Below, one piece after another: positions 6,861 through 58,085 of a DNA stretch of 64,000 bases. The notes under the pieces were generated by a model that was given only the letters and a program-made list of their open reading frames with translations, did not search any database and was not told where the DNA came from. This DNA comes from Sandaracinaceae bacterium (lineage in GTDB: Bacteria; Myxococcota_A; Polyangia; Polyangiales; Sandaracinaceae): contig JAHBWG010000042.1 of NCBI GenBank assembly GCA_019637095.1, forward strand, positions 1 to 64,000. The letters are read 5' to 3'. The translations under genes and the position numbers were made by a program. The stretch's first letter is position 1. Every line of letters starts with the position of its first letter.

Positions 6861-6875
6861 ACCCGGAGTTTTCTG

Positions 6876-8321: not shown

Positions 8322-8322
8322 G

Positions 8323-10085: not shown

Positions 10086-10834
10086 TGCGCGCGATCTGGA
10101 CGATCTTCAAGCGCGAGGTCCACTCGTTCTTCGTCTCGCCGATGGCGTACGTCTCGTTGACGGGGTGGCTGCTGTTCTCGGGCCTGACTTTCTGGATGCT
10201 CGCGGGCTACTACGCCGGGCAGCCGTTCGGGAACAGCGCGCAGGACAGCCCGCTCACCGCGTTCTTCGGGCAGACGACGCTCTTCTACCTCCCGATGCTG
10301 GTGTTCGTGCCGCTCGTGACGATGCGCCTCATCGCCGAGGAGCGGAACCGCGGGACGCTCGAGGTCCTCATGACCGCGCCCGTCACCGAGGCGAGCGTGG
10401 TGCTCGGCAAGTACCTCGCGGCGAACGTGTTCTGGCTCGCGATGTGGGCCCCGACGCTGCTCTACGTGTGGCTGACGAGCCGCTACGGGGACGTGGATCT
10501 CGGCGCGGTCGGCACGAGCTACCTCGGCGTCTTCGGGATCGGCGTCTACTACCTCGCGATCGGCGTCCTGATGAGCGCGATCTCGCCGAACCAGCTCGTG
10601 AGCGCGATCCTCACGTTCCTCGCGCTCGCCGGCCTGTTCGTCGTCGGGCTCGGTCAATACGTATTCGGCGACGAGTACCGCGAGCTCTTCGCCTACCTCT
10701 CGATCTGGGGCCACATGGAGGCGTTCTCGCGCGGCGTCGTCGACACGCGCTACCTCGTCTTCGACGCGAGCCTCGCGGCGGTCGCGCTGTCGCTCGCCGT
10801 CGGCTCGCTCAGCGCGCGGAGGCTCGAGGGATGA
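10085..10834 (+). CDS. ABC-2 type permease (GldF-like)
   Basis: 249 residues with about six membrane helices, an N-terminal 'IFKREVHSFFVSPMAYV' amphipathic stretch and the conserved 'LIAEERNRGTLEVLMTAPV' loop typical of GldF/NosY permeases. The ATG shares its first base with the stop of the ATPase gene and is preceded by GAGGAGGAG. It ends in a four-base ATGA overlap with the next gene. It forms the membrane channel of the exporter with the upstream ATPase. Confidence 0.9.
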   Translation: MRAIWTIFKREVHSFFVSPMAYVSLTGWLLFSGLTFWMLAGYYAGQPFGNSAQDSPLTAFFGQTTLFYLPMLVFVPLVTMRLIAEERNRGTLEVLMTAPVTEASVVLGKYLAANVFWLAMWAPTLLYVWLTSRYGDVDLGAVGTSYLGVFGIGVYYLAIGVLMSAISPNQLVSAILTFLALAGLFVVGLGQYVFGDEYRELFAYLSIWGHMEAFSRGVVDTRYLVFDASLAAVALSLAVGSLSARRLEG

Positions 10835-31431: not shown

Positions 31432-32169
31432 ATGCGAAGGATGATCGCCCTGTCGACGTCCGCGCTGCTCACGTCCGCGCTCGTCGCGGGCCTGATCGCC
31501 GGAGAGCCGGCCAACGCGCAGGAGGACGAATTCGGTGAGATGGACGCGCCCGCGGCGGGCGCGCCCACGCCGCCGGCCCCGAGCCAGCCCGCCGCCACCG
31601 GCGGGATGGATGCCGGGACGTACGCCGTCCGGCTCCGCGACCTCGAGCAGCGGATCAACGAGCTGAAGGAGCAGATCTTCCGGTCCAAGGCGCGGCTCTC
31701 GCTTCTGGCCGAGACGGTGCTGCAGGGGGTGGTCGCGGGCGCGCAGGCGGTGATCGTCCACGAGAACCGGATGAGCTCGTCTTACCGTCTCGTGAAGGCG
31801 GTCTACGCGCTCGACGGCGCGCGGATCTACAGCAAGGCCGACGAGGAGGGCTCGCTCGGCGAGCGACGCGAGACCGACATCTACGACGGCAGCATCGTGC
31901 CCGGCGAGCACACGCTCACCGTCAACCTCGAGTACCGAGGCCACGGCTACGGAATCTTCTCCTACCTCAAGGGGTACCGCTTCCGCGTGCGCTCGAACTA
32001 CTCGTTCAGCGCGCCGGAGGGGAAGGCCATCACGATCCGCGTCGTCGGCTATGAGAAGGGCGGTCCGACCGCGCCGCTCGAGGAGCGGCCTGCCGTGCGT
32101 TACATCGAGCGGCTGGAGTCGACCCGGCGCGGGAGCGGGGAGAGAGCCGGGGAGTCGGGAGCCGAGTGA
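31432..32169 (+). CDS. Secreted coiled-coil protein, first gene of the Glt/Nfs-like operon
   Basis: 245 residues. A signal peptide ends near 'GEPANAQ'; a Pro/Ala linker and a coiled-coil segment ('RLRDLEQRINELKEQIFRSK') precede a beta-rich C-terminal domain ('GEHTLTVNLEYRGHGYGIFS'). I do not recognise a named family. The ATG has GGGAG six bases upstream. It is the promoter-proximal gene of seven, overlapping the next by one base, and is expected to work in the periplasm with the TPR proteins that follow. Confidence 0.75.
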   Translation: MRRMIALSTSALLTSALVAGLIAGEPANAQEDEFGEMDAPAAGAPTPPAPSQPAATGGMDAGTYAVRLRDLEQRINELKEQIFRSKARLSLLAETVLQGVVAGAQAVIVHENRMSSSYRLVKAVYALDGARIYSKADEEGSLGERRETDIYDGSIVPGEHTLTVNLEYRGHGYGIFSYLKGYRFRVRSNYSFSAPEGKAITIRVVGYEKGGPTAPLEERPAVRYIERLESTRRGSGERAGESGAE

Positions 32170-34499
32170 TGGGTGGGCGGCTCCGCCGCGTCCCCGGGGT
32201 CCTCGCGCTGGGCGTCGCGCTCGGCCTGCCGGCGTCCGTCGGCGTCGCGCAGAGCCTCGACGACCTGACGCGCCAGGTGGTGAGCATCGAGGGCGATACG
32301 GCGCGGTTGCTCGAGCAGCCGCTGCGGCGCAGCGCGCGACGCTCGCCCACCTACGTCGAGGAGCGCCTGACCGACGGCGAGCTCTTCTACCGGCTGCAGG
32401 ACTACATCCGCGCCTCGATCATCTTCACCGACATCGTCGAGAACTTCCCGCAGCATCGCGCCTTCCCCGACGCGCTGTTCTACCTCGGCGACTCGCTCTT
32501 TCGCGCTGGGGACTACCTCGGCGCGCGGACGCGGTTCCGCGAGCTGATCGCGCAAGCCGGTGACACACGCTACCGCGACCACCTCCAGCGCGCGCTCGGC
32601 CGCCTGATCGAGATCGCCATCCACACGCGCGACTTCGACGGGGTCGAGGGGTACTTCGCGGCCCTGAGCCGCATCCCCCCCGGCGAGATCGAAGCGACCA
32701 CCAACTACTACCGCGCGAAGTACCTCTACAACCGCGCCGTTCCCACCGAGGACGTGCTCGCCGGCGCGGCCGACGCCCAGATCGACATGGCGATGCTCGA
32801 GCAGGCGCGGACCTCGTTCGAGGCGGTGCAGGCGGGCAGCCCGTACTACCCCCAAGCGCGCTACTTCATCGGCGTCATCTACACCCTGCGCGAGCAGTAC
32901 CCGCAGGCGATCGAGGCCTTCCGCTACGTGCTGCGGTCTCCCGCCGAGACGGAGGAGCAGCGGTCCGTGCTCGAGCTGACGCAGCTCGCGCTGGGGCGCC
33001 TCTACTACGAGACGGACCAGCTCGATCAGGCCGTGGAGGCGTACCAGGCCGTGCCGCGCACGTCCGCGAACTTCCACATGGCGCTCTACGAGGTCGCCTG
33101 GGTCTACATCCGCATGGGCGACAGCGTCCGCGCGGAGCGGGCCCTCGAAGTTCTCTCCGTGGCCGCGCCGGACAGCCGCTTCATCCCCGACGCGAAGATC
33201 CTCCGCGCGAACCTCCTCCTGCGCAACGGTCGCCTCGACGACGCGAACGAGCTGTTCCGGGAAGTGGCCGCAGAGTTCGGGCCCGTGCGCCGCGAGCTCG
33301 ACGCGATCCTCGAGCAGCACACGGACCCGCACGCCTACTTCCGCCAGCTCGTCCGCGAGAACATGGACAGCTTCGACGCGACGAGCTTCCTGCCGCCGCT
33401 CGCACAGCGCTGGGCGTCGCTCGAGGGCAACATGGATCGCGCGCTCTCGGTCCTCGGGGATCTCGCGCAGGCACGCCAGCTCGTCCGCGAGACGGCCGAG
33501 CTCATCGAGCGGCTCGACGCCGCCATCTCGCAGCCCAACCGCATGGTCGTGTTCCAGGATCTGCGGCTTCACGCAGAGCGTTCCACGGCGCTGCGCAACC
33601 GCGCCGCGCGGGTCCGCCGCGACCTCTTGCGCGACGCCGGCGCCGCGGGAAGCGCCGAGCGGCGGGCGATCGAGCAGCAGCTCGACGCGATGCCGATCGA
33701 GGACGCGGAGTTCGCCGCCTTCGACGACGAGGTGTTGTCGCGCTACCGCCGGCTCGGGCGCGAGCTCGGCCGCCTGGAGGTGGAGCTCACCGGCATGGAG
33801 GCGCGCATCGTCGCCATGGAACGCTACCTCGCCGACACGAGCGAGCAGCGGGACGCCGCCGCCACGGCCACGATTCGCCGCGAGCTCACCGGTCACCGTG
33901 CTTCCGTCGCGGACTACCGAGAGCAGATCCGCGTCCTCCAGATCGCGCTCGAGGCGGCGCGGCTCCAGGTCGGGCCGGGCGACGTGCGCTACCAGGAGCA
34001 CGAGCGGCTGCGCCGCGAGCACGCGCGGCTGGCGAGCGCCGAGGGCGCTCGCCTCTCCGGGCGCGCTCGCGAGCTCTTGACGCGCGTCGACACCGTCGAG
34101 GGGCGGCTCGACGCGCGCGACCGCGAGGTGCTCGCGGTCGTGGAGGAGCGCGTCGCCGACATCCGGCGCCAGCTCCGCGAAGAGTCCGAGAACCTGATCG
34201 GATATCGGCAGGCGCTGACCGGGCTCGAGGCGGAGACGGAAGACGTCGTCGGCGGCGTGACCTACGAGAACTTCGTGGCCGTGCAGCAGCGGTTCTACGA
34301 CCTGGTGCTGCGCGCGGACGTCGGCCGGATCGACGTGGCGTGGGCGCGCCGCGAGGAGCACCGCATGCGCGTCGAGCTGCTGACGCGGGAGCGCGCGCGA
34401 GAGCTCCGGGCGCTCGACGACGAGTTCCGCGAGATCATGGAGGACACCGACCAGGCGGGCTCCGCCGGCCGCGAGAGCGACGAGGAGGGTGGCGAGTGA
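32169..34499 (+). CDS. Large secreted TPR/coiled-coil protein
   Basis: 776 residues from the ATG at 32169 (GTG 32166 also possible). A signal peptide ('VLALGVALGLPASVGVAQ') is followed by TPR repeats over roughly residues 50-330 ('LDQAVEAYQAVPRTSANF', 'VRAERALEVLSVAAPDSRF') and then long helical, coiled-coil-rich sequence. It is likely a periplasmic scaffold. By position it corresponds to the TPR protein preceding GltD/NfsD in Myxococcus; homology was not tested. Confidence 0.75.
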   Translation: MGGRLRRVPGVLALGVALGLPASVGVAQSLDDLTRQVVSIEGDTARLLEQPLRRSARRSPTYVEERLTDGELFYRLQDYIRASIIFTDIVENFPQHRAFPDALFYLGDSLFRAGDYLGARTRFRELIAQAGDTRYRDHLQRALGRLIEIAIHTRDFDGVEGYFAALSRIPPGEIEATTNYYRAKYLYNRAVPTEDVLAGAADAQIDMAMLEQARTSFEAVQAGSPYYPQARYFIGVIYTLREQYPQAIEAFRYVLRSPAETEEQRSVLELTQLALGRLYYETDQLDQAVEAYQAVPRTSANFHMALYEVAWVYIRMGDSVRAERALEVLSVAAPDSRFIPDAKILRANLLLRNGRLDDANELFREVAAEFGPVRRELDAILEQHTDPHAYFRQLVRENMDSFDATSFLPPLAQRWASLEGNMDRALSVLGDLAQARQLVRETAELIERLDAAISQPNRMVVFQDLRLHAERSTALRNRAARVRRDLLRDAGAAGSAERRAIEQQLDAMPIEDAEFAAFDDEVLSRYRRLGRELGRLEVELTGMEARIVAMERYLADTSEQRDAAATATIRRELTGHRASVADYREQIRVLQIALEAARLQVGPGDVRYQEHERLRREHARLASAEGARLSGRARELLTRVDTVEGRLDARDREVLAVVEERVADIRRQLREESENLIGYRQALTGLEAETEDVVGGVTYENFVAVQQRFYDLVLRADVGRIDVAWARREEHRMRVELLTRERARELRALDDEFREIMEDTDQAGSAGRESDEEGGE

Positions 34500-37400
34500 G
34501 CCGACACAGCCTCCGGGCGCTCCTCTGCCTCGCGCTCGCCGCGCCGACCGTCGCGCGCGGCCAGGAGACGCCATCGCCGCTGCCGCTCCCCGGGCCGGGG
34601 CAGAACCTCTCCGACGTCGACCCGCCGCCGTGGGCGCGGGCGACCGACGCGCCGCATCCGTCGTTCCTCGACACCACGGATCGCCGCATCGTCGACGACC
34701 GGCCGCCTCCGACGCCGGAGCAGGTCGCCGCCCTGCGCGAGATGGAGGCCGAGCTCGAGCGGTTCGGCAACGTCGGGCGCGCGTACCGGGACTCGGTCAA
34801 CGCCATCCTCACGCGGGAGTACCACCGCCGCCGCCGCGAGCAGCAGGCCGGCTACGCGCGCCAGATCCGCGAGGAGGAGCAGCTCCAGAACGAGGCGCGA
34901 GACCGCGCCATCCGGATCTTCGAGGCGTTCATCCGTCGCTACCCCAACGACCCCACCTACACGGCCGACGCGATGTTCCGGCTCGGCGAGCTCTACTACG
35001 AGCGCTCGGCGATCCGCTTCCAGGCGGCGGCCGAGGAGGGCGAGGCCCCGGGGACGCCCGACTTCACGGACACGGTCGAGCTCTACCGCGCCCTGCTCGC
35101 GCGCTTCCCCGACTACCGCGGGATCGACGGCGTCTACTACCTCATCGGCTACTGCCTGAACGAGATGGCGCGCCAGCAAGAGGCGCGGCAAGCGTGGCTG
35201 AACCTCGCCTGCGCGAACCACTTCCAGTACACGGGTGAGCCGCCCGCCGCCCCCGCGCCCACCGAGGGCGAAGGGGAGGGCGCGGGGACCGGGTTCACGG
35301 AGTCCGAGCACCCGGCCCTCGGGCTCGGCGGGGGCTCGAGCGTCCTCGCGCCGAGCGGCCCGTTCGTCGACCCGTACGCCGGCTGCACGCCGATCACGCC
35401 GGACGCGCGCTTCGTGATGGAGGTGTGGCTCCGCATCGGTGAGTACCACTTCGACTTCGACTTCGAGCCCCACGCGCTCGACCGCGCCATCAGCGCGTAC
35501 GGCAAGGTCCTCGCGGACCCGAGCGACCGCAACTACAACCTCGCCCTCTACAAGGTCGCCTGGGCGTACTACCGCGCGAGCCGGTATCCGCAGGCGATCG
35601 AGCACTTCACGCGGCTGATCGACTGGTCCGACGAGCAGCTCCGCACGACGGGACGCGCCGGCACCGAGCTGCGCGCCGAGGCCGTGCAGTACCTCGGGAT
35701 CACCTTCGCGTACGACGACTGGAACGAGAACCAGATCCCAGACCGCGACGAGGGGCTGCCGGAAGGGCTGCGCCGCATCCAAGACGCGCGCCTCCTGCCG
35801 CAAGACCGGTCGTGGACCGTCGAGATCTACTTCGAGCTCGGGCAGGTCTACTTCGAGGAGGCGAAGTACCCGGAGGCCGTCGAGGTCTGGGAGTACGCGC
35901 TGAGCCGGTGGCCCAATCACCCGCGCGCGCCCGAGATCACGGCGAACATCGCGCGCGCCTGGCAGCGCCATCAGCAGATGGAGGAGGCGCTCCGCGCGCA
36001 GGCGCGGCTCGGGCAGTACCGCGAGGGCTCCGAGTGGTGGAACGCCAACATGGACAACCCCATCGAGCAGCGGCGCGCCGAGCAGCTGGCCGAGGGGGCG
36101 CTCATCAACGACGCGATCCGTCACCACCGGCTCGCCCAGCAGCTCCGGATCGAGGCGGTCCAGCAGCGGAGCGCGCAGCGCCTCGAGGAGGCGCTGCGCG
36201 AGTACTCGCTCGCCGCCGAGGCCTACCGCGCCTACCTCCAGAACTACCCGAACAGCCCGAACGCATACGAGCTCCGTTACAACCTCGCCGACGCGCTCTT
36301 CTGGTCGGAACAGTACGAGGAGGCGGCGTCGGTGTACGCGACGGTGCGGGACTCGAACCTCGACGATCGGTACCTCTCCGAATCGGCCCGCCGCGTCGTG
36401 GAGTCCCTGCATCGCATCGTCGAGCAGGCGGCGGCGAGAGGCGAGATCACCATCCGCAACAGCCGCGAGGACATCCCCCAGCCGACGGGGACGCCGCCGC
36501 GTGTTCAGCCGACGGAGATGCCGCTCCTGGTCCAGCGCCTCGCGCAGGCCCGCGAGGTCTACGTCGCGCGCGTGCCGGAGGAGCAGGATCGCGAGCGCGT
36601 GCGGGCGGCCTACGACTACAACAACGCGCTCCTGCTCTACTACTACGGCTACTGGCCGCAGGCGCGGCAACGTTTCTTGCGGATCTACGAGGAGCGCTGC
36701 TCGGGCCCCTACGCGAACTCGACGGGTCAGATCGCTTGGGAGAGCCTCTACAACATGGCCATCGCGATGAGCGACACGGCCGAGGCGGAGCGGCTCAGTC
36801 TCGACATCCAGCGGCGCGCGTGCTCGTTCTCGCCCGACGTCTCGTTCGAGTCGGCGGAGCAGCGCGACGCGTACTGCAACCGCGCGGAGAACCGCGACTC
36901 GCCGATCTGCGTGGCGAGCGGCGTCCTGACCAACGTGCGCTACGCGCGCGCGCTCGAGCTCTACCAGCAGGCCGAGTCGGCCACCGGCGAAGACCAGCGC
37001 CGGATGTACGAGCAGAGCGCGACGATGCTCGTCGAGGCGGTCAACGACGAGCCCAACCACGAGCAGGCGCCGCAGGCCCTCTTGCAGGCGGGGCTCGCCC
37101 TCGAGCGCACGCAGCGGTTCGAGTCGGCGGGGCGCCTCTACCAGCGCGTGATCGACGAGGTCACGCCGCTCTTGTCGCGCGCGAGCCCGGAGCGGCGGAC
37201 GCTGCTCGAGGGCATCCTCGCGACCGCGTACTTCCGCCTCGCGTACACCGCGAACCGGTTCTTCGACTACGACCGCGCGGTCCAGAACTACCGGCAGATC
37301 GCCGACTCCTCGGTGTTCGCCGCCTCGACCGACCCGGAGATGCCCGAGCGCATCACCGACTCGCTGATCAACGCCGCGCGCATCCTCGAGTACCAGCAGC

Positions 37401-38374
37401 AGTACGCGCAGGCGGCGCAGTACTACACGCGCGCGGCCGACCGCCTCCGAGACCCGGCCGAGCAGCGCAGCGCTCGCTTCCGCGTGGCCGAGATGTCCTT
37501 CAAGCGGCGCGACTGGAACGGCGCGATCCGCGAGATGCAGGCGTTCATCGATCGCTACCGCAACGATCGGGGCGCGAGCGAGCTCTTGATCCAGGCGCAC
37601 CAGCGGATCGCGCAGGTGCGCGAGGCGCAGGGCTCGCGGCAGGCGACGATCGACGCGGCCCTGCAGGAGGTCGTGCGCGCGTACGATCGCTTCGGTGGTC
37701 AGCCGGGGACGCTCGGCGCCGAGTACGCCGCGGAGTCGCGCTTCCGCCTCGTCGACCCGGCGCTGCAGAACCTCGAGAGCCTCACCATCAACCCCGGTCG
37801 CCAGCGCACGCCCGAGGCGTTCGTCGCGGAGCTCAACCGGCAGATCCAGGACGGGTCCTCGCGCACGCAGTCCACCGCGCAGGGTTACGAGCCGATCCTC
37901 GCGTACCGCCGCCCGACCTGGACGATCGCCGCGCTCACGCGCCAGGGTCGCGCATACGAGATCCTCGCGCGCGCGGTGCTGAACGCGACGATCAGCATGC
38001 CGACGGATCTCGAGACCCAGCTGCGCCGGGCTTCGCAGGACGTGCGGGACGAGATGCGCGCGACCTTCGAGGATCGGGTGCGGCAGGTGCTCGACGCGCA
38101 GGTCCGGCCGATCGAGTGCTACGCGGTCGTACGCTACGCGCTGTCGGCGCGGGCGGCGCGGCACGGCAACATCGACAACGAGTACTCGCGCGAGGCGATC
38201 GACCGGCTGCAGGCGTACGGCGAGGAGCGCATCGCGGAGTGCATCACGCAGCAGCAGGCGCAGGACGCGACGTTGGGCGCCTATCAGCCCGGCGAGTTTG
38301 CGCGGGCGCGTCGCGGGCAGCATACCGAGGTGCCGGCGGGAGTGTCGGCGCCCCCGTTCGCGAGTGAGGACTGA
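34496..38374 (+). CDS. Very large secreted TPR protein (GltD/AgmU/NfsD-like)
   Basis: 1292 residues. Signal peptide ('ALLCLALAAPTVARGQE'), then TPR repeats along most of the length ('EDRAIRIFEAF'-like helices, 'QVYFEEAKYPEAVEVWEYAL', 'YAQAAQYYTRAADRL'). Size, signal peptide and TPR content match AgmU/GltD and NfsD, the ~1200-residue periplasmic TPR proteins of gliding and spore-coat machines. GTG at 34496 overlaps the preceding stop by four bases; a TGATG overlap leads into the next gene. Gene order supports the assignment more than sequence recognition does. Confidence 0.7.
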   Translation: MSRHSLRALLCLALAAPTVARGQETPSPLPLPGPGQNLSDVDPPPWARATDAPHPSFLDTTDRRIVDDRPPPTPEQVAALREMEAELERFGNVGRAYRDSVNAILTREYHRRRREQQAGYARQIREEEQLQNEARDRAIRIFEAFIRRYPNDPTYTADAMFRLGELYYERSAIRFQAAAEEGEAPGTPDFTDTVELYRALLARFPDYRGIDGVYYLIGYCLNEMARQQEARQAWLNLACANHFQYTGEPPAAPAPTEGEGEGAGTGFTESEHPALGLGGGSSVLAPSGPFVDPYAGCTPITPDARFVMEVWLRIGEYHFDFDFEPHALDRAISAYGKVLADPSDRNYNLALYKVAWAYYRASRYPQAIEHFTRLIDWSDEQLRTTGRAGTELRAEAVQYLGITFAYDDWNENQIPDRDEGLPEGLRRIQDARLLPQDRSWTVEIYFELGQVYFEEAKYPEAVEVWEYALSRWPNHPRAPEITANIARAWQRHQQMEEALRAQARLGQYREGSEWWNANMDNPIEQRRAEQLAEGALINDAIRHHRLAQQLRIEAVQQRSAQRLEEALREYSLAAEAYRAYLQNYPNSPNAYELRYNLADALFWSEQYEEAASVYATVRDSNLDDRYLSESARRVVESLHRIVEQAAARGEITIRNSREDIPQPTGTPPRVQPTEMPLLVQRLAQAREVYVARVPEEQDRERVRAAYDYNNALLLYYYGYWPQARQRFLRIYEERCSGPYANSTGQIAWESLYNMAIAMSDTAEAERLSLDIQRRACSFSPDVSFESAEQRDAYCNRAENRDSPICVASGVLTNVRYARALELYQQAESATGEDQRRMYEQSATMLVEAVNDEPNHEQAPQALLQAGLALERTQRFESAGRLYQRVIDEVTPLLSRASPERRTLLEGILATAYFRLAYTANRFFDYDRAVQNYRQIADSSVFAASTDPEMPERITDSLINAARILEYQQQYAQAAQYYTRAADRLRDPAEQRSARFRVAEMSFKRRDWNGAIREMQAFIDRYRNDRGASELLIQAHQRIAQVREAQGSRQATIDAALQEVVRAYDRFGGQPGTLGAEYAAESRFRLVDPALQNLESLTINPGRQRTPEAFVAELNRQIQDGSSRTQSTAQGYEPILAYRRPTWTIAALTRQGRAYEILARAVLNATISMPTDLETQLRRASQDVRDEMRATFEDRVRQVLDAQVRPIECYAVVRYALSARAARHGNIDNEYSREAIDRLQAYGEERIAECITQQQAQDATLGAYQPGEFARARRGQHTEVPAGVSAPPFASED

Positions 38375-39870
38375 TGCGCGCGCTCCGGCTCACGATCTCG
38401 TGCCTGCTCCTCGTGGCGCTCGTCGCCGTGCCCGGGTGCAACGATGGCTCGGACGGCTCGGCGCAGGGCGGGTCCTCGTCCGGAGGCGAGGACGTCGGCG
38501 GCGGCTCGAGCGGATCGAGCGGATCGAGCGGGTCGAGTGGCTCGAGTCGGGACCTGCCGGACAGCGACCTCGAGTCCGAGGCGGACCGCAGCCGGCCGCC
38601 GGCCGGTGGCGGGACGACGGGCTCGACCGGTTCGGCGGGTACGCCCCCGGCGGGCGGCGCCGGGACGGGCGGCGCGACGGCCGGCGGGAGCCCCTCGGGG
38701 GAGTCGCCGTGGGGCCGACCGGAGGCCGAGACCGGCACGCCGCTCCCGCCTCGGCGGCCGATGAACGCGACCGCACGCTCGGCCTATCAGAGCGGGCTCC
38801 GCGCCGCGGCGCAGGGCAACGACGATCAGGCGCGGCAGGAGTTCCAGCGCGCGCTCTCGGCGGACTCGAACGCCTACAAGGCCGCGTACAACCTCGGCGT
38901 CCTCGCCGATCGCGCGGGCAACGAGAGCCAAGCGATCCAGTTCTACGAGCGGGCGCTCGCGATCCAGGCCGACTACGAGCGGGCGATCCTCGGCATCGCG
39001 CGGATTCACCTGCGCCGCGGCGACACCGGCCAAGCGGTGAGCTTCGTCCGGCCGCTCGCCGAGCGCTGGGTGCGCAACCTCCACGTCCAGGCCGTCTACG
39101 GGGACGTCCTCGTCGCGGCGAACCGGCCCGAGGAGGCGATCACCGCCGCCCGCTCCGCGCTGCGGCGGGACGAGCGGTTCGTGCCCGCGATGGTGGTCCT
39201 GGTGAAGGCGAACCTCCGGCTCGGGCGCACCGAGCTCGCGGAGTCGATCCTCGACCAGGCGATCCAGACCGACGCCAACGTCGCCGAGCTCCACTACCTG
39301 CGCGCGCGGATGCACCAGGAGCAGGGGAACCTCAGCTCCGCGCTGCAGAGCTACGAGCGGGCGATCCAGCTCGAGCCGTCCTACACGGAGGCGCGCATGG
39401 CGCTGGGCCTGCAGCAGCTCGCGTCGGGGAACTACGAGCAGGCGCTCGCCCAGTTCCGCGCCGCCGCCAGCCTCGCGCCGACGCTCGCGGCGGTGCGGCT
39501 CGCGCTCGGCGACGCGTACCGCGCGACGAAGAACTGGCAGGCCGCGAAGGCCGAGTTCGACCGCGTCCTCGAGATGGAGCCTCGCAACGCGGAGGTCCAC
39601 TTCAACCTCGGCCTCATGTACCAGGAGGCCGCAGAGAACTTCCCCGGGATGACGAAGCTCGACGCGTACCGGCGGGCGGTCACCGAGCTCAACCGCTATC
39701 GTGAGCTGATGGGTCCACGCCTGGCGCGAAACGACCAGAGCCAGGCATTCCTCGAGGAGCTCGCGCGCATGATCGAGCGCGAGCAGCGCGCGCAGGAGCG
39801 CGAGGCGGCTCGAATCCAGCGAGAGCAGGAGCGTGCGGCGCGTGAGGCCGCAGGGGGGACCGGACAATGA
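38374..39870 (+). CDS. TPR lipoprotein (GltE/NfsE-like)
   Basis: 498 residues. A signal peptide with a lipobox-like 'VAVPGC' is followed by a 90-residue Ser/Gly/Pro linker and at least eight TPR units ('AYNLGVLADRAGNESQAIQFY', 'ARMALGLQQLASGNYEQALAQ'). The C-terminus is a charged coiled coil. It is probably an outer-membrane-anchored TPR protein reaching into the periplasm, as GltE is thought to be. Stop and start codons overlap with both neighbours. Confidence 0.78.
   Translation: MRALRLTISCLLLVALVAVPGCNDGSDGSAQGGSSSGGEDVGGGSSGSSGSSGSSGSSRDLPDSDLESEADRSRPPAGGGTTGSTGSAGTPPAGGAGTGGATAGGSPSGESPWGRPEAETGTPLPPRRPMNATARSAYQSGLRAAAQGNDDQARQEFQRALSADSNAYKAAYNLGVLADRAGNESQAIQFYERALAIQADYERAILGIARIHLRRGDTGQAVSFVRPLAERWVRNLHVQAVYGDVLVAANRPEEAITAARSALRRDERFVPAMVVLVKANLRLGRTELAESILDQAIQTDANVAELHYLRARMHQEQGNLSSALQSYERAIQLEPSYTEARMALGLQQLASGNYEQALAQFRAAASLAPTLAAVRLALGDAYRATKNWQAAKAEFDRVLEMEPRNAEVHFNLGLMYQEAAENFPGMTKLDAYRRAVTELNRYRELMGPRLARNDQSQAFLEELARMIEREQRAQEREAARIQREQERAAREAAGGTGQ
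38503..38547 (+). repeat. 9-bp minisatellite encoding Gly-Ser-Ser
   Basis: Five consecutive near-identical 9-base units (GGATCGAGC and variants) encode (Gly-Ser-Ser)5 in the flexible linker of the TPR lipoprotein. Unit number could vary between strains. Confidence 0.8.
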
Positions 39871-40142
39871 CGACGAGCACGATGACGCTGACTCGGTGGC
39901 TCGCGGCGCTGGCCGTAGCGCTCTTCGCTTCGTTGGCGCTCGCTGCGAGCGCCGACGCGCAGTCCTCGTCGGGCCGCCAGCCGCGCGTGATCCAGCTCGA
40001 CGAGATCCGCATCGAGGGCCGCGTCCAGAAGCCGAACGCGTTCTACATCCTGAACCGGAGCAACCTCGGCTACGAGGTCATCGACCTGCGCACGAGCTTC
40101 GTGCGCGAGGTCATCCGCAGCGTGATGCGCGAGCCCTTCTGA
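39867..40142 (+). CDS. Small secreted protein of the Glt/Nfs-like operon
   Basis: 91 residues. A signal peptide ('WLAALAVALFASLALAASADA') precedes a short conserved-looking domain ('RVIQLDEIRIEGRVQKPNAF', 'SFVREVIRSVMREPF'). It sits between the lipoprotein and the TolQ-like gene, a place where Glt/Nfs operons carry a small periplasmic protein (GltF/NfsF); equivalence is inferred from position only. Its ATG overlaps the previous stop. Confidence 0.78.
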   Translation: MTTSTMTLTRWLAALAVALFASLALAASADAQSSSGRQPRVIQLDEIRIEGRVQKPNAFYILNRSNLGYEVIDLRTSFVREVIRSVMREPF

Positions 40143-40813
40143 GCGCCTACCACGCAGCGCAGGTCGTCCTCCTCCTCGTCGTCGTCGCGCTCGTGGCGGA
40201 GCGTGTGAGGACGCTCTCCTTCACGTCGAACGTCGACATCGCCGCGCTGCGCCGCGGCGTCCGCAGGCTCCTGTCGCGCGGCCAGATCGCTCGGGCCGCG
40301 GGGCTCTTGACCGCCGCGCTCCCGGCGTGGCCCGCGCGCTGCGCACTCCCGCTCGTCGACCCGGCGATCCCCGACGCGGAGCGGACCGAGCAGCTCGAGG
40401 ACCGCCTCTTCGACGCCCGGATCGCGTCGCTGCGTTGGATGCGCGCGCTGCGCGTCGCCGCGACGGTCGCGTCCGCGCTCGGCTTCATCGGCGCCGCCAT
40501 CGAGATCCACTGGGTGTTCAACGCCGACCACGGGCTCCTGCGTCTCGAGGCGGGGCGGGTGGAGAGCGTCGGGTTCCAGCGCGCGACGCTCTCGGTCGCG
40601 CTCGGCATCGCCACCTCGAGCCTCGCGCTGGGCTCTTTCACCATCCTGCGCAAGGTCGCGCTCGATCGGCTCGCCCAGTGCCGCAGGCTCGTCGCGGCCG
40701 TCGAGGACGCCCTCGATTCGCCGATCGATGAGGGGATCGCGCAGGCGAGTCGTGATAGGCTGGCGCCGGAAAACCGCGTGGCCTCGGAACCCCCGACCGC
40801 CGATGGGGTCTGA
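40139..40813 (+). CDS. Divergent MotA/TolQ/ExbB-like membrane protein
   Basis: 224 residues with three predicted membrane helices ('AAQVVLLLVVVALVAERV', 'VAATVASALGFIGAAIEIHWVF', 'ATLSVALGIATSSLALGSFTIL') and a basic cytoplasmic loop between the first two, as in TolQ/ExbB/AglR stators. The helix-3 'SVALGIATSSLALG' resembles the pore motif of that family. No ATG, GTG or TTG begins this frame before helix 1; CTG at 40139, which overlaps the previous stop as CTGA, is the only candidate. If real, the stator lacks a TolR/ExbD partner in the operon. Confidence 0.65.
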   Translation: MSAYHAAQVVLLLVVVALVAERVRTLSFTSNVDIAALRRGVRRLLSRGQIARAAGLLTAALPAWPARCALPLVDPAIPDAERTEQLEDRLFDARIASLRWMRALRVAATVASALGFIGAAIEIHWVFNADHGLLRLEAGRVESVGFQRATLSVALGIATSSLALGSFTILRKVALDRLAQCRRLVAAVEDALDSPIDEGIAQASRDRLAPENRVASEPPTADGV

Positions 40814-40849: not shown

Positions 40850-42319
40850 ATGACTCAAGAGACTCCGCAGCAGAATCCGCCGCGACGCGGCCAGCCCGGC
40901 GCGATGACCATGGCGATGCAGGCGGTCGCCGCCCGCCCGGTCGGCCCGAAGGTCTTGCGCATCGGCGTGATCCAGGGCGACAAGATCATCGAAGAGCGGA
41001 TCATCCGGAAGCGCGAGACGGTCACCGTCGGCAGCTCCGAGAAGAACCACTTCGTGGTCTCCGGGGCTGGCCTCAGCTCGCGCTTCGAGCTGTTCCAGCT
41101 CGTCGGCAACGACTACATCCTGAACTTCACCGACCAGATGCGCGGCCGGGTGGGCCTCGCGGGTGGCGTCCAGGTGCTCGAGGACCTCCGCACGAGCGGC
41201 GCGGCGCGCAAGGCGAACGGGTACTACCAGGTCAAGCTCTCGGACAACTCGCGCGGCAAGGTGGAGATCGGCGGGACCACGCTCCTCTTCCAGTTCGTCG
41301 TGCCGCCCCCGGTCCAGCCGCGGCCGCAGCTGCCGGCCGCGGTCGTCGGCGGGTTCATCGCAGGCATCGACTGGCTGTTCACTGCGTTCGTGATGTTCTC
41401 GTTCATGACCCACTTCGGGTTCATCATCTACCTCGAGAACGCCGACTGGCCGGTGGATCCGGGCCTCGCGACGGTCCCCGATCGGGTCGCCGAGCTGATC
41501 TTCAACGAGCCCACGCCGCCGCAGCCCGAGCAAGAGGTCCAACCGACGGAGACGTCGGACGAAGAGGTCGCCGAGGAAGCCACGGAGGAGGCGGTCGCAG
41601 AGACCCAGACACAGGCCCCGAGCCGAACGCCCGAGCCCACCAGCGGGAGCGGGCAACAGGCGGCCGACAACAACGCGCGGCTCGCCGTGGAGCAGGCGCA
41701 GGCGCGGGTCGAGCAGATGCTGCTCGGCGCGCTCGGCGGGGCCGACGGCGCATTCCAGGACGTGCTCGCCGGAGGCGCGGTCACCGGCAACGCCGAGGAC
41801 GTGATGGCGACGGCCGAGGGCGTCGGCGTCGCGACGAGCGCGGAGGGCGGCACCCTGCGCGAGCGCAGCGGCGGCGGGACCGTCGGAGCCGCGACGCGCG
41901 GGCTCGGCAGCCTGCAGGCGCGTGAGGGCGCCCAGCAGCAGCAGCGTGAAGGCGAGCAGATCGTCGAGCGCGTGATCCGCGGCCGGGTGGCGTCGGGCTC
42001 GCTCGAGGAGGAGAGCGGCTCGGGCTCGTTCGACCCGAACCTCGTCGCCGCCCAGATCCGCGCGCGGATCCGCGCCATCCAGACGTGCTACGAGCGAGAG
42101 CTGCGGAACAACCCGACGCTCGCGGGCCGCGTGCTCGTGAGGTTCACCATCCAGCCGACCGGGACGGTCAGCGGCGCCACGGCGACGGAGAACAGCACGG
42201 GGAGCCCCGCCGTGGCCGCCTGCGTCGTGACCACGATCAGCCGGTTCCGGTTCAACCCGGGCCCGGAGGGCGGCTCGGTGACGTTCGCCTATCCGTTCGT
42301 GTTCGCTCCACAGAACTGA
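40850..42319 (+). CDS. GltG/NfsG-like trans-envelope protein with AgmX/PglI C-terminal domain
   Basis: 489 residues. An FHA-like cytoplasmic domain ('KRETVTVGSSEKNHFVVS', 'RFELFQLVGNDYIL') is followed by a membrane helix ('DWLFTAFVMFSFMTHFGFIIYL', near 175-200). A Pro/Glu-rich periplasmic linker comes next, and the C-terminus is an AgmX/PglI-type TonB-like domain ('IRARIRAIQTCYERELRNN', 'GRVLVRFTI'). This layout is that of GltG and NfsG, which link the inner-membrane motor to the cell envelope. It lies 36 bases after the TolQ-like gene and ends the operon. Confidence 0.82.
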   Translation: MTQETPQQNPPRRGQPGAMTMAMQAVAARPVGPKVLRIGVIQGDKIIEERIIRKRETVTVGSSEKNHFVVSGAGLSSRFELFQLVGNDYILNFTDQMRGRVGLAGGVQVLEDLRTSGAARKANGYYQVKLSDNSRGKVEIGGTTLLFQFVVPPPVQPRPQLPAAVVGGFIAGIDWLFTAFVMFSFMTHFGFIIYLENADWPVDPGLATVPDRVAELIFNEPTPPQPEQEVQPTETSDEEVAEEATEEAVAETQTQAPSRTPEPTSGSGQQAADNNARLAVEQAQARVEQMLLGALGGADGAFQDVLAGGAVTGNAEDVMATAEGVGVATSAEGGTLRERSGGGTVGAATRGLGSLQAREGAQQQQREGEQIVERVIRGRVASGSLEEESGSGSFDPNLVAAQIRARIRAIQTCYERELRNNPTLAGRVLVRFTIQPTGTVSGATATENSTGSPAVAACVVTTISRFRFNPGPEGGSVTFAYPFVFAPQN

Positions 42320-42548: not shown

Positions 42549-43124
42549 ATGGTGGACGGACGACGGGTGCTGACCACGCTCCTGGTAGCGCTAGCGTTGG
42601 GAGCCATCGGGCTGGGGTTGGCGATCGCACAGGACGGCTCCGACGAGCTCGCCCCGGGCGAGGTGCCGGTCCGGATCCGAGCGAACGTCATGCCCCAGGA
42701 CCAGCTCGACGAGGCGAACGAGATCGTCACGCGGGGCGAGACGGTCGGGGCGCGCGTGCAGCGGCAGCTCGAGGAGTCGCGCCGCAGCGGCGACATCATC
42801 CGCGTGACGTGCCTGAACGACAAGGTCACGCAGCTGACGGCGCACCGCAGCACCGCGCGGACGCGGTACCGGCGGCTGGCGGACGCGGACCGTGCGGGCG
42901 ATCGCGATCGAGCTCAACACGAGTACACGGTGCTCGTGGTGCTCGGGGGTCACTTCAGGAACCTCGAGGGTGAGGCGGCGGCGTGCGTGGGCGAGGACAT
43001 CTACGAGACCGGGGCGACGCAGGTGAGCACCGAGATCGATCCCAACACGCCCGACGAGAGCCTGCTCATGCAGGACCCGCCCGAGGATCCGGCGATCCCA
43101 CCGCCACTGACGATTGATATCTGA
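42549..43124 (+). CDS. Small secreted protein, first gene of the export operon
   Basis: 191 residues. A signal peptide ('VLTTLLVALALGAIGLGLAIA') leads to a helical domain ('DEANEIVTRGETVGARVQRQLEESR') and an acidic, proline-rich tail; two or three cysteines are present. No family recognised. It is preceded by a strong promoter and followed by the beta-barrel and export lipoprotein, so it may be a periplasmic helper of that pore. Confidence 0.78.
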   Translation: MVDGRRVLTTLLVALALGAIGLGLAIAQDGSDELAPGEVPVRIRANVMPQDQLDEANEIVTRGETVGARVQRQLEESRRSGDIIRVTCLNDKVTQLTAHRSTARTRYRRLADADRAGDRDRAQHEYTVLVVLGGHFRNLEGEAAACVGEDIYETGATQVSTEIDPNTPDESLLMQDPPEDPAIPPPLTIDI

Positions 43125-43194
43125 GCGCCTCGCCCTCGCGGCGGAGTTTGCGCTACTCTCCGCGCTCGCGGAACGTCCCGTAGGGAGAACACTC

Positions 43195-44556
43195 TTGAAC
43201 TGGACTCACAAGCTCGGGCTCGCCGCCCTCACCGGGATGCTGCTCGGGTCAGTGCCGGCGTCGGCTCAAGTGGCCGGCTGGCTCGAGGATCGCGATCGCG
43301 CACAGGGGCCGGGCTTCCAGCTCGGGGACTTCGAGCTGCACCCCGGCCTCGGCGTGGAGATCGGGTACGACTCGAACCTGTACTACTCGCAGGACGGCGC
43401 GGGTCGGATCCCGTTCCGCGACTCGGCGATCCTGCGCGCGGTCGCGCACCTCATGATCTCGTCGCGCGGGCCTGCCCGGCGCGAGGGCGGCGAAGGCGCG
43501 GGGGAAGAGGGGCACGACGCGGCCCTGCCAGCGGTGAGGTTCCGCGGCGGCCTCAGCGGCTCCTTCTACCACTTCTTCAACGACGAGAACCGGACGAACA
43601 TGGAGGTCGACGCGGACCTCGAGCTGACGATCCTGCCGGGTCGCCCGTTCTCCATCGTCCTCGCGAACACCTTCGGGCGCCGGATCCGGCCCTTCACCGA
43701 GCTCGTCGTGGAAGGGACGTCCTTTGCGCGCCTCCAGAACGACGGGGGCATCCGGTTCGACTTCCAGACCGACGGCGGGGTGCTGCGGGTCTCCGCGGGC
43801 TACAACATCGCCCTCAACTTCTTCGAGGACGCCCCGTTCGGCTATGGGAACAGCCTACGGCACGCCATCACCCTCAGCGAGACCTTCCGGTTCCTCCCGC
43901 AGACCGCGATCATCCACGACACCAGCGTCCGCATCATCGACTTCTTCGGCCCTCCGGGCCTTCGGACCCCCGAGGTCAACGACGGGATCCTCGTGCGCAC
44001 TCGGGTCGGCCTCAACGGCGCGATCACGCCCGAGTTCTCGGTGCTCGGGATGGTCGGGTACGGCGCGGGGTTCTTCGAGCCGCACTCGCCGACGGTAGAG
44101 CAGGAGTTCGAGTCGCTCGTCGCGCAGGTCGAGGCCCGCTGGCAGATCCTCCCGAACGTGCGGCTGAGCTTCGGGTACGACCGCGACTTCTATCCCTCGC
44201 TCATCGGCAACTTCTACCGGATGGATCGGGGCTACATCCGGACGCAGTTCCTCATCGACCGCGTGTTCCTCCTCGGCGCGGACGTCTCGCTCGGCTACTT
44301 CGAGTTCGGCCGGCTCTACGACAACATGGGCGGCTTGCTCGGCACCGGCGCTGACCGCGATGACATCCGCTTCCTCGGGTCGCTCTTCGCGGAGTACCGC
44401 TTCACCGATTGGCTCGGGGTCAACGCGACGTTCAACTACCGGGGCACGTTCACCGACTATCAGTACGACATCGCGGTTCCCGGGATGGGTCCAATCCTCG
44501 ATCCCGCCGGCTTCAACAAGTTCCAGGTCTGGCTCGGTGTCCGGGTGTTCTACTGA
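43195..44556 (+). CDS. Outer-membrane beta-barrel, polysaccharide porin-like (Wzp type)
   Basis: 453 residues from the TTG at 43195, which follows GGGAG and opens a good signal peptide ('LGLAALTGMLLGSVPASA'). The mature part consists of alternating amphipathic beta-strands and ends in 'WLGVRVFY' with a terminal aromatic residue, the usual barrel insertion signal. It lies 34 bases before a short OPX protein, the pairing described in Myxococcus where a separate Wzp barrel supplies the outer-membrane pore. Confidence 0.78.
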   Translation: MNWTHKLGLAALTGMLLGSVPASAQVAGWLEDRDRAQGPGFQLGDFELHPGLGVEIGYDSNLYYSQDGAGRIPFRDSAILRAVAHLMISSRGPARREGGEGAGEEGHDAALPAVRFRGGLSGSFYHFFNDENRTNMEVDADLELTILPGRPFSIVLANTFGRRIRPFTELVVEGTSFARLQNDGGIRFDFQTDGGVLRVSAGYNIALNFFEDAPFGYGNSLRHAITLSETFRFLPQTAIIHDTSVRIIDFFGPPGLRTPEVNDGILVRTRVGLNGAITPEFSVLGMVGYGAGFFEPHSPTVEQEFESLVAQVEARWQILPNVRLSFGYDRDFYPSLIGNFYRMDRGYIRTQFLIDRVFLLGADVSLGYFEFGRLYDNMGGLLGTGADRDDIRFLGSLFAEYRFTDWLGVNATFNYRGTFTDYQYDIAVPGMGPILDPAGFNKFQVWLGVRVFY

Positions 44557-44590
44557 ACGTCAGGCCGCGCCGGGCAACCGTCCGGGGCCG

Positions 44591-45202
44591 ATGCACGAGA
44601 CGAGCGCGTCGAAGTCGTTGAGCGCGATCGCGCTCGCGGTGGCCTTGGTCGCGGGGCCGGGGTGCGGGCCGTCCGCGATCGGCACGCCGCCGCCGCCCGT
44701 CGCGAACCAGCAGGCCGTGCTCGGGCCGGGCGACGCGTTCGACGTGCGCGTGTACGGCGAGGCCGACCTCTCGACGAACTACGTCGTCCAGCCCGACGGG
44801 ACGATCGACTTCCCCTACCTCGGGAGCGTCGAGGTGGACGGCCTCTCGCCCACCGGGGCGGCCCAACACCTCGCCTCTCGCCTGCGAGAGGGGGGGGTCC
44901 TCGTCGCCCCTCACGTCTCGATCGTCGTGACCGACTACACGAGCCGGGTGATCGCGGTGACCGGCGCCGTGCGCCGGCCCGGCAACTACCCCGTGACGCC
45001 AGGGCTCACGGGGCTGCAGGCCGTCGGCCTCGCGGGTGGGACGAACGAGCTCGCCAACCGCAACGGCGCGATCGTGACTCGACGCGTCGATGGGCAGATG
45101 CGCCGCTACGCCGTGCCGCTCGATCGGATCATCGTCGGGGACGTCGACGACGTCCCCGTCCAAGCGGGCGACATCCTCTACGTGCCCGAGCGGATCCTCT
45201 GA
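44591..45202 (+). CDS. Short polysaccharide export (OPX/Wza-like) lipoprotein
   Basis: 203 residues: signal peptide with a cysteine near residue 25, a Poly_export domain ('LGPGDAFDVRVYGEADLST', 'DGTIDFPYLGSVEV') and one SLBB-type domain ('VAVTGAVRRPGNYPV', 'GDILYVPERIL'). It stops straight after SLBB and lacks the C-terminal membrane helix of E. coli Wza, so it cannot make its own outer-membrane channel. The adjacent beta-barrel probably does. It converges on the aminotransferase gene with only 21 bases between stops. Confidence 0.9.
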   Translation: MHETSASKSLSAIALAVALVAGPGCGPSAIGTPPPPVANQQAVLGPGDAFDVRVYGEADLSTNYVVQPDGTIDFPYLGSVEVDGLSPTGAAQHLASRLREGGVLVAPHVSIVVTDYTSRVIAVTGAVRRPGNYPVTPGLTGLQAVGLAGGTNELANRNGAIVTRRVDGQMRRYAVPLDRIIVGDVDDVPVQAGDILYVPERIL

Positions 45203-45223
45203 TCGAGTCCCGGCGGCGTGGGC

Positions 45224-46306
45224 TCACGCGTGCGCGAGGAGGGTGCGGGCGACGTGCGCGCGCTCGTCCTGCCGCAGCTCGGGGAAGACGGGCAAGGCCA
45301 GCGAGCTCTCGGCGAGCGCCTCCGCGACGGGAAAGCGCCCGCGTGCGCCCTGTGCGAAGCAGGGCTGGAGGTGGAGCGGGCGCGGGTAGTAGACCATCGT
45401 CTCGACGCCGTCGGCGGCGAGCGCCGCGCGCACCGCGTCTCGCGACGCGACGCGCACGACGTACTGGTTGTAGACGTGGAAGCGACCCTCGAGCGCGCGC
45501 GGGGTCGTGACTCGTGACACCAGCGCCGCGTCGTAGAACGCGGCGTGCGCCCGCCGCGCCTGCGTCCACGCGTCGAGGTGGGCGAGCTTCACCGAGAGCA
45601 ACGCGGCTTGCAATGGATCGAGGCGGAAGTTCCCGCCGACGACGTGGTGGTGGTACTTCGGCTCCGCGCCGTGGACGCGCAGGCGCCGGATCTTCGCGGC
45701 GAGCGCGTCGTCGTCCGTCGTCACGAGGCCGGCGTCGCCGAGGGCCCCGAGGTTCTTCGCGGGGAAGAACGAGAAGCACGCGGCCACGCCGAGCCCGCCC
45801 GCGGCGCGCCCCCGGTAGCGCGCGCCGAACGCCTGGGCGGCATCCTCGATCACCGGGACGCTGCCGGCGGCGCGCGCGATCGCGTCCACGTCCGCGCACT
45901 GCCCGAACAGGTGCACCGGGACGACGGCCCGTGTGCGCGGGCCGATCGCGGCGGCGACCGCGTCCGCGTCCATGCCGAAGTCGTCCTCGCGGACGTCGAC
46001 GAACACCGGGCGCGCGCCGAGCCGCGCGACGACCCCGGCGGTCGCGAAGAAGGAGTACGTCGGGACGATCACTTCGTCGCCGGGCCCGACCTCGAGCGCC
46101 ATCAGCGCGACGAGCAGGGCGTCGGTGCCCGAGGAGACGCCGATCGCGTGGCGCACGCCGAGCCGCTCGCTGCAGGCGCGCTCGAACCTCTCGACCTCGG
46201 GACCGAGGATGTACGTGCCGCTCTCGAGGACCCGATCGAACGCCTCGCGGAGCGCCTCGTCGAGCGCCGCGCCGCCGCGGCGCAGGTCGAGGAACGGCAC
46301 CCTCAT
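45224..46306 (-). CDS. wbpE: Nucleotide-sugar 3-aminotransferase (WbpE-like, DegT family)
   Basis: 360 residues of the PLP-dependent DegT/DnrJ/EryC1 family: 'GVSSGTDALLVALMAL' phosphate-binding stretch, 'VIEDAAQAFGARYRG', and the PLP lysine in 'SFFPAKNLGALGDAG'. Next to WbpD- and WbpB-like genes it is expected to transaminate a 3-keto UDP-GlcNAc-uronate to the 3-amino sugar. It is the last gene of a nine-gene operon; its ATG overlaps the upstream stop by four bases. The pathway role is inferred from the gene trio. Confidence 0.88.
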   Translation of the reverse strand: MRVPFLDLRRGGAALDEALREAFDRVLESGTYILGPEVERFERACSERLGVRHAIGVSSGTDALLVALMALEVGPGDEVIVPTYSFFATAGVVARLGARPVFVDVREDDFGMDADAVAAAIGPRTRAVVPVHLFGQCADVDAIARAAGSVPVIEDAAQAFGARYRGRAAGGLGVAACFSFFPAKNLGALGDAGLVTTDDDALAAKIRRLRVHGAEPKYHHHVVGGNFRLDPLQAALLSVKLAHLDAWTQARRAHAAFYDAALVSRVTTPRALEGRFHVYNQYVVRVASRDAVRAALAADGVETMVYYPRPLHLQPCFAQGARGRFPVAEALAESSLALPVFPELRQDERAHVARTLLAHA

Positions 46307-46923
46307 CGCTGCGGCTCGGGGTCGGGGAGGGGGGCGTCCTCGTCGAGGTCGACGCAGCGTACGCCCTCGGCGCCCAGGACGTAGCGGTACCCGCTCTCGG
46401 GACAGATCGCCTCGTCGCCCGGGGAGGCGAGGACGAGCCGGTGGCCGTGCCGGCTCATCCACCCGCTCGGGACGGCCGGTACGCCCAAGACGAGGGCGTA
46501 GTCCGCGACGTCGCGCGTCACGACCGCGCCGGCGCCGATGAAGGCGTGCCGCCCGATGGTCGTGCCGCACACGATCGTCGCGTTCGCCCCGACCGTCGCG
46601 CCGCGACGGATCACCGTCGACTCGTAGAGCGCGCGCCGGTTCACCGCGGCGCGCGGGTTCGAGACGTTCGTGAGCACGCACGACGGGCCGAGGAACACGT
46701 CGTCCTCGACGACCGTGCCGGTGTAGAGCGACACGTTGTTCTGCACCTTCACGCGGTCGCCGACGCGGACTCCGTCCGCGACGAAGCAGTTCTGACCGAA
46801 GGAGCACCCGCGGCCGATCTCGGCGCCGCGCATGATGTGGCAGAAGTGCCAGATGCGCGTCCCTTCGCCGAGGCAGCCGTGGTCGTCGACGACCGCCGTC
46901 GGGTGGATGAACACCGAGCTCAT
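46303..46923 (-). CDS. wbpD: N-acetyltransferase (WbpD-like, left-handed beta-helix)
   Basis: 206 residues of hexapeptide repeats ('GEGTRIWHFCHIMRGAEIGRG', 'GATVGANATIVCGTTIGRHAF') forming a left-handed beta-helix. The family acetylates the 3-amino group made by WbpE, giving a 2,3-diacetamido uronic acid nucleotide. ATGA overlaps with both neighbours show co-translation with WbpB- and WbpE-like genes. Confidence 0.9.
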   Translation of the reverse strand: MSSVFIHPTAVVDDHGCLGEGTRIWHFCHIMRGAEIGRGCSFGQNCFVADGVRVGDRVKVQNNVSLYTGTVVEDDVFLGPSCVLTNVSNPRAAVNRRALYESTVIRRGATVGANATIVCGTTIGRHAFIGAGAVVTRDVADYALVLGVPAVPSGWMSRHGHRLVLASPGDEAICPESGYRYVLGAEGVRCVDLDEDAPLPDPEPQR

Positions 46924-47861
46924 CGCGCGCCGCGGAAGAACGGGTGGAGGGGCCCGCGTGCCCCCGCAGGCGCCGTGGTGCGGATGCGGTGGGCGAGCTC
47001 CACGGACGGACGCGCGTCCTCGATCCCGAAGCCGCCGCCAGCGAGCACGTCCTCGTACACGACGGTGTGCAGATCGGTGAACCCCGGCGAGAACTCGAGC
47101 TCCTCGCCGTCGATCGCGAGCGACCGGAACGCGGGCGGTCCGTCCGGGCCGGCGGGCAGATCGGCTGCCCGCGTCGAGAGGTACCATCGCACGTCGGCGC
47201 GCTCGAGCTCCAGGAAGCCAGACCAGCGTTCCGGCTCGGCGATGTGGACCTCACACGTCCTCGGGGCGCCGAAGATCCACTGCAACAGATCGAAGAAGTG
47301 TACGCCGATGTTCGTCGGCAGACCGCCGCTCTTGGCCTCCGAGCCCTTCCACGAGATGCGGTACCAGGGGCCGCGCCGCGTCACGTAGCTCAGGACGACG
47401 TCCGCGCGCCGCGCGCGGTCGCGCACCTCGTCCCGCAGCCGCTGGAGCTGTGGGAGATACCGGAGCTGCAGCACGGTGTAGACCCGCCTCGCGCTCTCGC
47501 GCTCGAGCTCCGCGAGCTGATCGAGGTTCCAGGGGTTGATGACGAGCGGCTTCTCGCAGATCGCGTGGGCGTTCACCCGCAGCGCCAGGCGCACGTGCGC
47601 GTCGTGGAGGTAGTTCGGTGTGCAGATGCTGACGTAGTGCACGCGGTCGGCTTCGCCGAGGCGCCTCGCCTTCTCGAGGTGGCGGTCGAACCGCTCCACC
47701 TCCGTGAAGAACTTCGCGTCGAGGAAATAGCGGTCGAGGATGCCGACCGCGTCGTGCGGATCGCACGCGGCGACGAGCCGGTTGCCCGTCGCCCGGATGG
47801 CCTGCAGGTGTCGCGGGGCGACGAACCCCGCCGCCCCGAGCAGCGCGAAGTTCCGGCTCAT
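46920..47861 (-). CDS. wbpB: Gfo/Idh/MocA oxidoreductase (WbpB-like)
   Basis: 313 residues. The N-terminal Rossmann motif 'LLGAAGFVAPRHLQAI' (first two glycines), 'ICTPNYLHDAHVRLAL' and the catalytic 'CEKPLVINPWNL' fit WbpB, which oxidises UDP-GlcNAc-uronate at C3 and works as a pair with WbpE, recycling NAD. Length matches the family (~315). Eight bases separate it from the BY-kinase stop. Confidence 0.88.
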   Translation of the reverse strand: MSRNFALLGAAGFVAPRHLQAIRATGNRLVAACDPHDAVGILDRYFLDAKFFTEVERFDRHLEKARRLGEADRVHYVSICTPNYLHDAHVRLALRVNAHAICEKPLVINPWNLDQLAELERESARRVYTVLQLRYLPQLQRLRDEVRDRARRADVVLSYVTRRGPWYRISWKGSEAKSGGLPTNIGVHFFDLLQWIFGAPRTCEVHIAEPERWSGFLELERADVRWYLSTRAADLPAGPDGPPAFRSLAIDGEELEFSPGFTDLHTVVYEDVLAGGGFGIEDARPSVELAHRIRTTAPAGARGPLHPFFRGAR

Positions 47862-47869
47862 CTCTCGGC

Positions 47870-50155: not shown

Positions 50156-50195
50156 CGGCGCGCCCCGGCGAACCTTGACCGGGCCACTCGGCGAG

Positions 50196-55775: not shown

Positions 55776-55780
55776 CCTCG

Positions 55781-56791: not shown

Positions 56792-56795
56792 GAGG

Positions 56796-58085
<1,290 letters not shown>

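Follow-up and report, generated by a model that had tools for sequence, protein, structure and literature searches.

A TolQ/ExbB-like gene without the pore threonines between gltF and gltG of a Sandaracinaceae Glt-like operon: a candidate adaptor with a predicted CTG start

The closest described relatives of the system presented here are two paralogous machines of M. xanthus, Glt and Nfs, both powered by the proton-conducting AglRQS motor, whose subunit AglR contacts GltG as well as NfsG (PMC3858216). Nfs acts on exported polysaccharide with this same motor (PMC3858216). The G1 cluster of M. xanthus consists of gltD, E, F, G and H, with nothing between F and G (PMC3169522, Table 1). AglR belongs to the TolQ family, in which a threonine ring contributed by transmembrane helices 2 and 3 works together with an aspartate of TolR, ExbD or MotB (PMC12965293, PMC8928145). 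The pore threonines of TolQ are important for Tol function and are co-conserved with D23 of TolR (PMC12965293, PMC8928145), and their replacement results in severe (T145A) or moderate (T178A) defects (PMC12965293).

In this study we analysed a stretch of 64,000 nucleotides from a Sandaracinaceae bacterium (the window), which carries a Glt-like operon of the order gltC-gltD-gltE-gltF-X-gltG, where X is a divergent TolQ/ExbB/AglR-like gene. All of its genes are read from the forward strand: a gltC-like TPR protein (32169-34499; NF033756, E=5.2e-29), a large gltD-like TPR protein (34496-38374; assigned by TPR matches and its place in the operon), a gltE-like TPR protein (38374-39870; NF033758, E=2.5e-26), gltF (CglF-like, 39867-40142; weak match to NF033764), X itself (40139-40813) and a gltG-like gene (40850-42319; NF033760 with E=2.2e-49, NF033768 above its cut-off, and PF03544), whose product has one transmembrane helix and a TonB-like C-terminus and is the likely partner of X. 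The gltF product of 91 aa has a signal-peptide-like N-terminus and ends with REPF followed by TGA. NCBIfam matches to GltC, GltE, CglF and GltG, with a TPR protein in the gltD place, are found here together; their scores stay under the equivalog cut-offs, as is to be expected for a paralogue.

A second, fuller Glt operon comprising GltC, D, E, CglF and GltG was noticed elsewhere in the same genome (L126, contig C90:33000-52999, at 3720-14005 and on), which makes the window operon the second, diverged Glt copy. In the C90 operon GltC, CglF and GltG score 276, 66 and 440 bits, respectively; its GltG has an FHA domain and a TonB-like tail, and is followed by a TPR protein and then by a protein of at least 1977 aa. 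Since the gap between gltF and gltG is only 91 nt there, this operon has no X. For the window GltG paralogue, the alignment to the GltG model is confined to positions 178-647 and Pfam gives no FHA hit; judged from its sequence, this protein seems either to have lost the FHA domain kept by the C90 protein or to have it in a strongly altered form. In the transmembrane helix of GltG, an S-xxx-H motif resembling that of TonB/TolA was considered and dropped, as the histidine is present only in the three nearest relatives of the window and is not shared by the GltG proteins of X-containing loci in general. Two proteins flanking the operon, of 245 aa (31432-32169) and 191 aa (42549-43124), gave no Pfam or NCBIfam match above noise. 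Directly after the operon (43114-58085) there is a beta-barrel protein, then polysaccharide-export and sugar-modifying genes, with matches to Poly_export/SLBB, Wzz/AAA and DegT aminotransferase; among them are a Wza-like export protein (44594-45202) and, on the minus strand, a Wzc-like protein in which Wzz and AAA domains are combined (47870-50890); such an export cluster adjoining a Glt-like machine is reminiscent of Nfs and Exo.

The frame of X is open from the CTG at 40139-40141, which overlaps the gltF stop TGA (40140-40142) by four nucleotides as CTGA (40139-40142), to its own stop TGA at 40811-40813, and encodes 224 aa. With a limit of E≤1e-3, 29 of the 56 related genomes contain homologues, the best of which reached 5.5e-59 and the weakest of which are ordinary TolQ/AglR-like proteins; together with purifying selection, this rules out a chance open reading frame: X is a real gene. 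The original prediction described its product as having three membrane helices in the TolQ/ExbB/AglR layout, and hydropathy and structure modelling agree with that: hydrophobic segments at about residues 1-30, 103-127 and 149-171 match the helices modelled at residues 3-29 (transmembrane helix 1, 40145-40225), 101-128 (containing TM2, 40439-40522; also placed by alignment to TolQ) and 140-193 (a long helix containing TM3, 40556-40717).

The AlphaFold model was built from X proteins alone and has a mean pLDDT of 91.9; it shows the TolQ/ExbB arrangement, in which TM1 is N-terminal and is followed by a cytoplasmic helical portion, TM2 and a long TM3. Compared with the PDB, its best 21 entries are all TolQ, ExbB or PomA (Z 14.6-10.6, 174-207 residues aligned), with TolQ/ExbB at the top (Z 14.6, 191 residues), at 9-16% identity between X and TolQ/ExbB over the structural alignment; Foldseek E-values are modest (4.5e-3 at best) with a probability of 1.00. 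At the sequence level, a profile of 27 X proteins (A2) finds TolQ (E=1.1e-5) and ExbB (4e-4) among PDB sequences, and the six ordinary TolQ proteins of the same genome with E between 1.6e-22 and 9.7e-7 in a search of these six sequences. In whole genomes, profile A1 matches ordinary TolQ genes with E-values of about 1e-20. The single X sequence matches no Pfam model, PF01618 included, and no NCBIfam model; homology to TolQ/ExbB is nevertheless secure, because a model made from X proteins only matches TolQ/ExbB structures first. As profile, fold and location all agree, the TolQ/ExbB/AglR-like identity originally proposed stands, and we regard membership of X in the TolQ/ExbB/MotA superfamily as near certain.

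Where X departs from this superfamily is the pore, whose sites were placed by profile alignment to E. coli TolQ and by alignment with the six TolQ proteins of its own genome. The TM2 threonine (T145 of TolQ, T148 of ExbB) corresponds to Ala119 of X (40493-40495) and is Ala, Val or Ile in 27/27 X proteins; the TM3 threonine (T178 of TolQ, T181 of ExbB) corresponds to Val153 (40595-40597) and is hydrophobic in all 27 as well (I, V, L, M, F or A). Thus Thr or Ser occurs at neither site in any of the 27 X proteins, and no polar replacement is seen, while both threonines are kept in 6/6 ordinary TolQ proteins of the same genome. The glutamate of the "EA" motif of ordinary TolQ/ExbB is aligned with Arg148 in the window (40580-40582), and this position varies in other X proteins. 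Because the threonine ring is lost, X should not relay protons by the known mechanism, and it is probably non-conducting, as judged from these alignments, though a proton path through other residues may exist.

The start codon was approached by comparing orthologues. In about 22 orthologous loci an ATG, GTG or TTG is found at position 1 of the X profile or no more than three codons away from it, and in five genomes of four genera (the window, L005, L006, L073 and L085) CTG is the sole start-like codon at the orthologous position. In L073 an in-frame stop lies just upstream and is followed by GAGGAG, six bases and CTG, which by its sequence is a clear Shine-Dalgarno and a good ribosome-binding arrangement. 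Residues close behind the start are conserved (of the 27 X proteins, 17 have His5 and 24 have Gln8), which implies that they are translated. The CTGA overlap alone is not evidence, since the conserved final Phe codon of GltF (TTC) followed by TGA creates it automatically, and it occurs also at loci devoid of X.

It had been predicted that no ATG, GTG or TTG precedes helix 1; in fact the frame is open back to 39772 and contains GTGs at 39833, 39842 and 39896, none of which is a credible start, because all three lie within gltE/gltF, which are read in a different frame, and because in several orthologues a stop codon interrupts the X frame a few codons ahead of the start. The most distant of these considered as a start, GTG 39833, was rejected on the same grounds. 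Also rejected was GTG 40193, chosen by a simple codon-usage gene caller that allows only ATG, GTG and TTG: it lies within helix 1, would remove the conserved His5 and Gln8 together with much of that helix, and the orthologues start upstream of it, none of them downstream of helix 1. CTG 40139 is then the best-supported start, and initiation at it is predicted with high confidence, in line with the start overlapping the upstream stop that was originally proposed, even if the overlap itself proves little. Overlaps of four bases, which are frequent between genes for subunits of the same complex, favour termination-reinitiation, the overlaps treated being ATGA and GTGA (PMC10666635); we infer that the rule may be carried over to CTGA.

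The order gltF-X-gltG is fixed, and most clear orthologues directly follow gltF. At a strict threshold 17 of 377 genomes of the phylum are X-positive, all of them in the order to which the window belongs. Identity to the window protein ranges from 22 to 50% among X proteins, and the gltF-to-X spacing from -4 to several hundred nt. The dN/dS of X is 0.09 for L005/L006, two genomes of one genus in the family of the window, and 0.23-0.37 in three other pairs, pairs with the window itself being near saturation and therefore left out. GltF is extraordinarily conserved, with the core VQKPNAFYILNR...LRTSF, next to a fast-evolving X; in three of four genome pairs 54/54 of its residues are identical, even where synonymous sites differ widely. 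On a GltG tree (single gene, quick method) the loci lacking X fall into a single clade of 19 rows, which is nested among X-bearing loci, and an outlying pair; early presence of X followed by one later loss is thus the simplest history. The 19-locus clade keeps gltF and gltG, and X is therefore dispensable for the machine in some lineages. One X homologue with a single in-frame TGA, which may reflect a sequencing error, a frameshift or decay, was also noted (L140, G043:C234:1733-2353).

We found neither an ExbD gene nor a second TolQ in the window, at 59-78 kb of its contig or in the DNA (up to 4 kb) flanking 46 related gltF loci, which bears out the originally noted absence of a TolR/ExbD-like companion. 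The description of X as a lone TolQ-like gene is true of the operon and not of the genome, which contains 6 ordinary MotA/ExbB and 13-14 ExbD genes, all located outside the window operon. The TolQ nearest to X in its own genome (C113_minus; 69 bits, against 17-41 for the other TolQs) is followed by two ExbD genes, and this is the layout of AglR-AglQ-AglS. The region concerned (L129, contig C113:50000-67000) harbours two divergent AglRQS-like sets at 5552-11801, each with a TolQ and then two ExbD genes, and a further ExbD at 5552-6019; contig C118 has one TolQ with its own ExbD pair.

An active stator which borrows an ExbD/TolR dimer encoded elsewhere and conducts without the two threonines would be compatible with the presence of ExbD genes with no obvious adjoining TolQ among the 13-14, and with M. 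xanthus, where the AglRQS genes lie apart from the glt clusters (PMC3169522) and the motor works for Glt as well as for Nfs (PMC3858216). We consider it unlikely, as the pore threonines are lost along with the neighbouring Glu and with no polar substitute for the threonines in 27 X proteins, alanine at these sites impairs TolQ, severely for T145A and moderately for T178A (PMC12965293), and the two TolQ genes at C113 and the one at C118 are already provided with ExbD pairs of their own. Still less probable is a structural or assembly protein unrelated to the motor, for instance a membrane anchor for GltF or for the adjoining polysaccharide-export genes: X does follow gltF, the operon does adjoin the Wza-like/Wzc-like cluster, and Nfs of M. 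xanthus handles exported polysaccharide (PMC3858216), but X precedes gltG wherever both are visible, and the linkage to export genes is known from this window alone.

Its fast divergence beside the nearly unchanging GltF and its loss in one clade might suggest that X is a former motor subunit in decay, which survives only because it sits in an overlapping operon; this is very doubtful in view of dN/dS values of 0.09-0.27 in close pairs, the frame intact in nearly all genomes and the conservation of Q8, A149 and G156 in X proteins. Moreover, the overlap is not what preserves X, because the gene is retained at widely varying distances from gltF. The original prediction had offered two options, a stator specialised for the machine or a non-pumping relic. 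Of the second, the non-pumping part agrees with the loss of both threonines throughout the 27 proteins, whereas the relic part does not fit the low dN/dS and the intact frame across many genera; presence in one order, a fixed locus and purifying selection argue against decay. The first is supported so far as X is tied to the Glt-like operon throughout one order. Least probable among the alternatives weighed is that translation does not begin at CTG, initiation taking place instead at a GTG far upstream, or a -1 frameshift at the stop codon of gltF yielding a fused GltF-X protein. X is indeed in the -1 frame at that stop with its frame open upstream, and the topology would make sense for a periplasmic GltF fused to an N-out helix; yet most orthologues have their own ATG or GTG 4 to several hundred nt past the gltF stop, often after an in-frame stop, in L073 the GAGGAG and CTG come after one (the CTG 12 nt past it), and no slippery heptamer is evident at CCC-TTC-TGA.

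The reading we prefer, to which we assign a probability of about 0.5, is that X belongs to a second, Nfs-like Glt machine and acts there as a non-conducting adaptor, similar to AglR, for the GltG paralogue. X would then be an inner-membrane subunit of the TolQ/ExbB/AglR family dedicated to that machine. Its translation from CTG would most likely depend on termination at the gltF stop followed by reinitiation, and hence keep step with that of GltF. Its product would fold as a TolQ-like protomer; either as a passive ring or as one subunit of a mixed ring, it might take its place within or next to a genuine AglRQS-type motor and dock the transmembrane helix of the GltG paralogue encoded by the next gene; its job would be to connect, to assemble or to idle, as an adaptor or clutch, and not to drive. 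An obvious candidate partner follows from X being encoded next to gltG and from the contact of AglR with GltG/NfsG in M. xanthus, and the adjacency in the operon is suggestive of direct contact. Oligomerisation, contact with GltG or the motor, non-conduction and the adaptor role are all what we infer for X from fold, residues and location. A broader version is tentative: an order-wide "pseudo-stator" in which conduction was lost for good, and which as a passive coupling ring or mixed-ring subunit would link GltG-type transducers to a shared AglRQS-type motor, its output partly set by the weak, GltF-coupled CTG start.

Set against the described systems, X resembles AglR of the M. xanthus gliding motor (PMC3169522, PMC3858216) in family, and the binding of AglR to GltG/NfsG is paralleled by the place of X beside gltG; it differs in having no AglQ/AglS partner genes nearby, in having no pore threonines and in lying inside a glt-like operon. 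With TolQ and ExbB of the Tol-Pal and Ton systems it shares the three-helix fold over almost the whole chain, and it is distinguished from them by replacement of both threonines and of the EA-motif Glu. As X has neither the pore threonines nor the encoded partner of a proton-driven stator, it should not be filed as AglR, TolQ or ExbB. The window operon is like Nfs (PMC3858216) in being a second Glt copy, Nfs being linked in function to an exported polysaccharide and the window operon adjoining polysaccharide-export genes, a likeness by analogy that does not imply orthology; for Nfs (nfsA-H), which uses the shared AglRQS, no TolQ-like gene of its own is mentioned (PMC3858216). Our literature search, made in the main texts of open-access papers, found no description of a TolQ-like gene between gltF and gltG.

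X is also a case in which comparative genomics locates a CTG start that is misplaced by a caller accepting only ATG, GTG and TTG. Members of the TolQ/ExbB/MotA superfamily are described as ion-driven motor subunits, and a branch which keeps the fold but has no path for ions would set apart two tasks, holding the transducer and driving it. Such a branch would also hint at a way for a single shared motor to serve several Glt/Nfs-like machines of myxobacteria.
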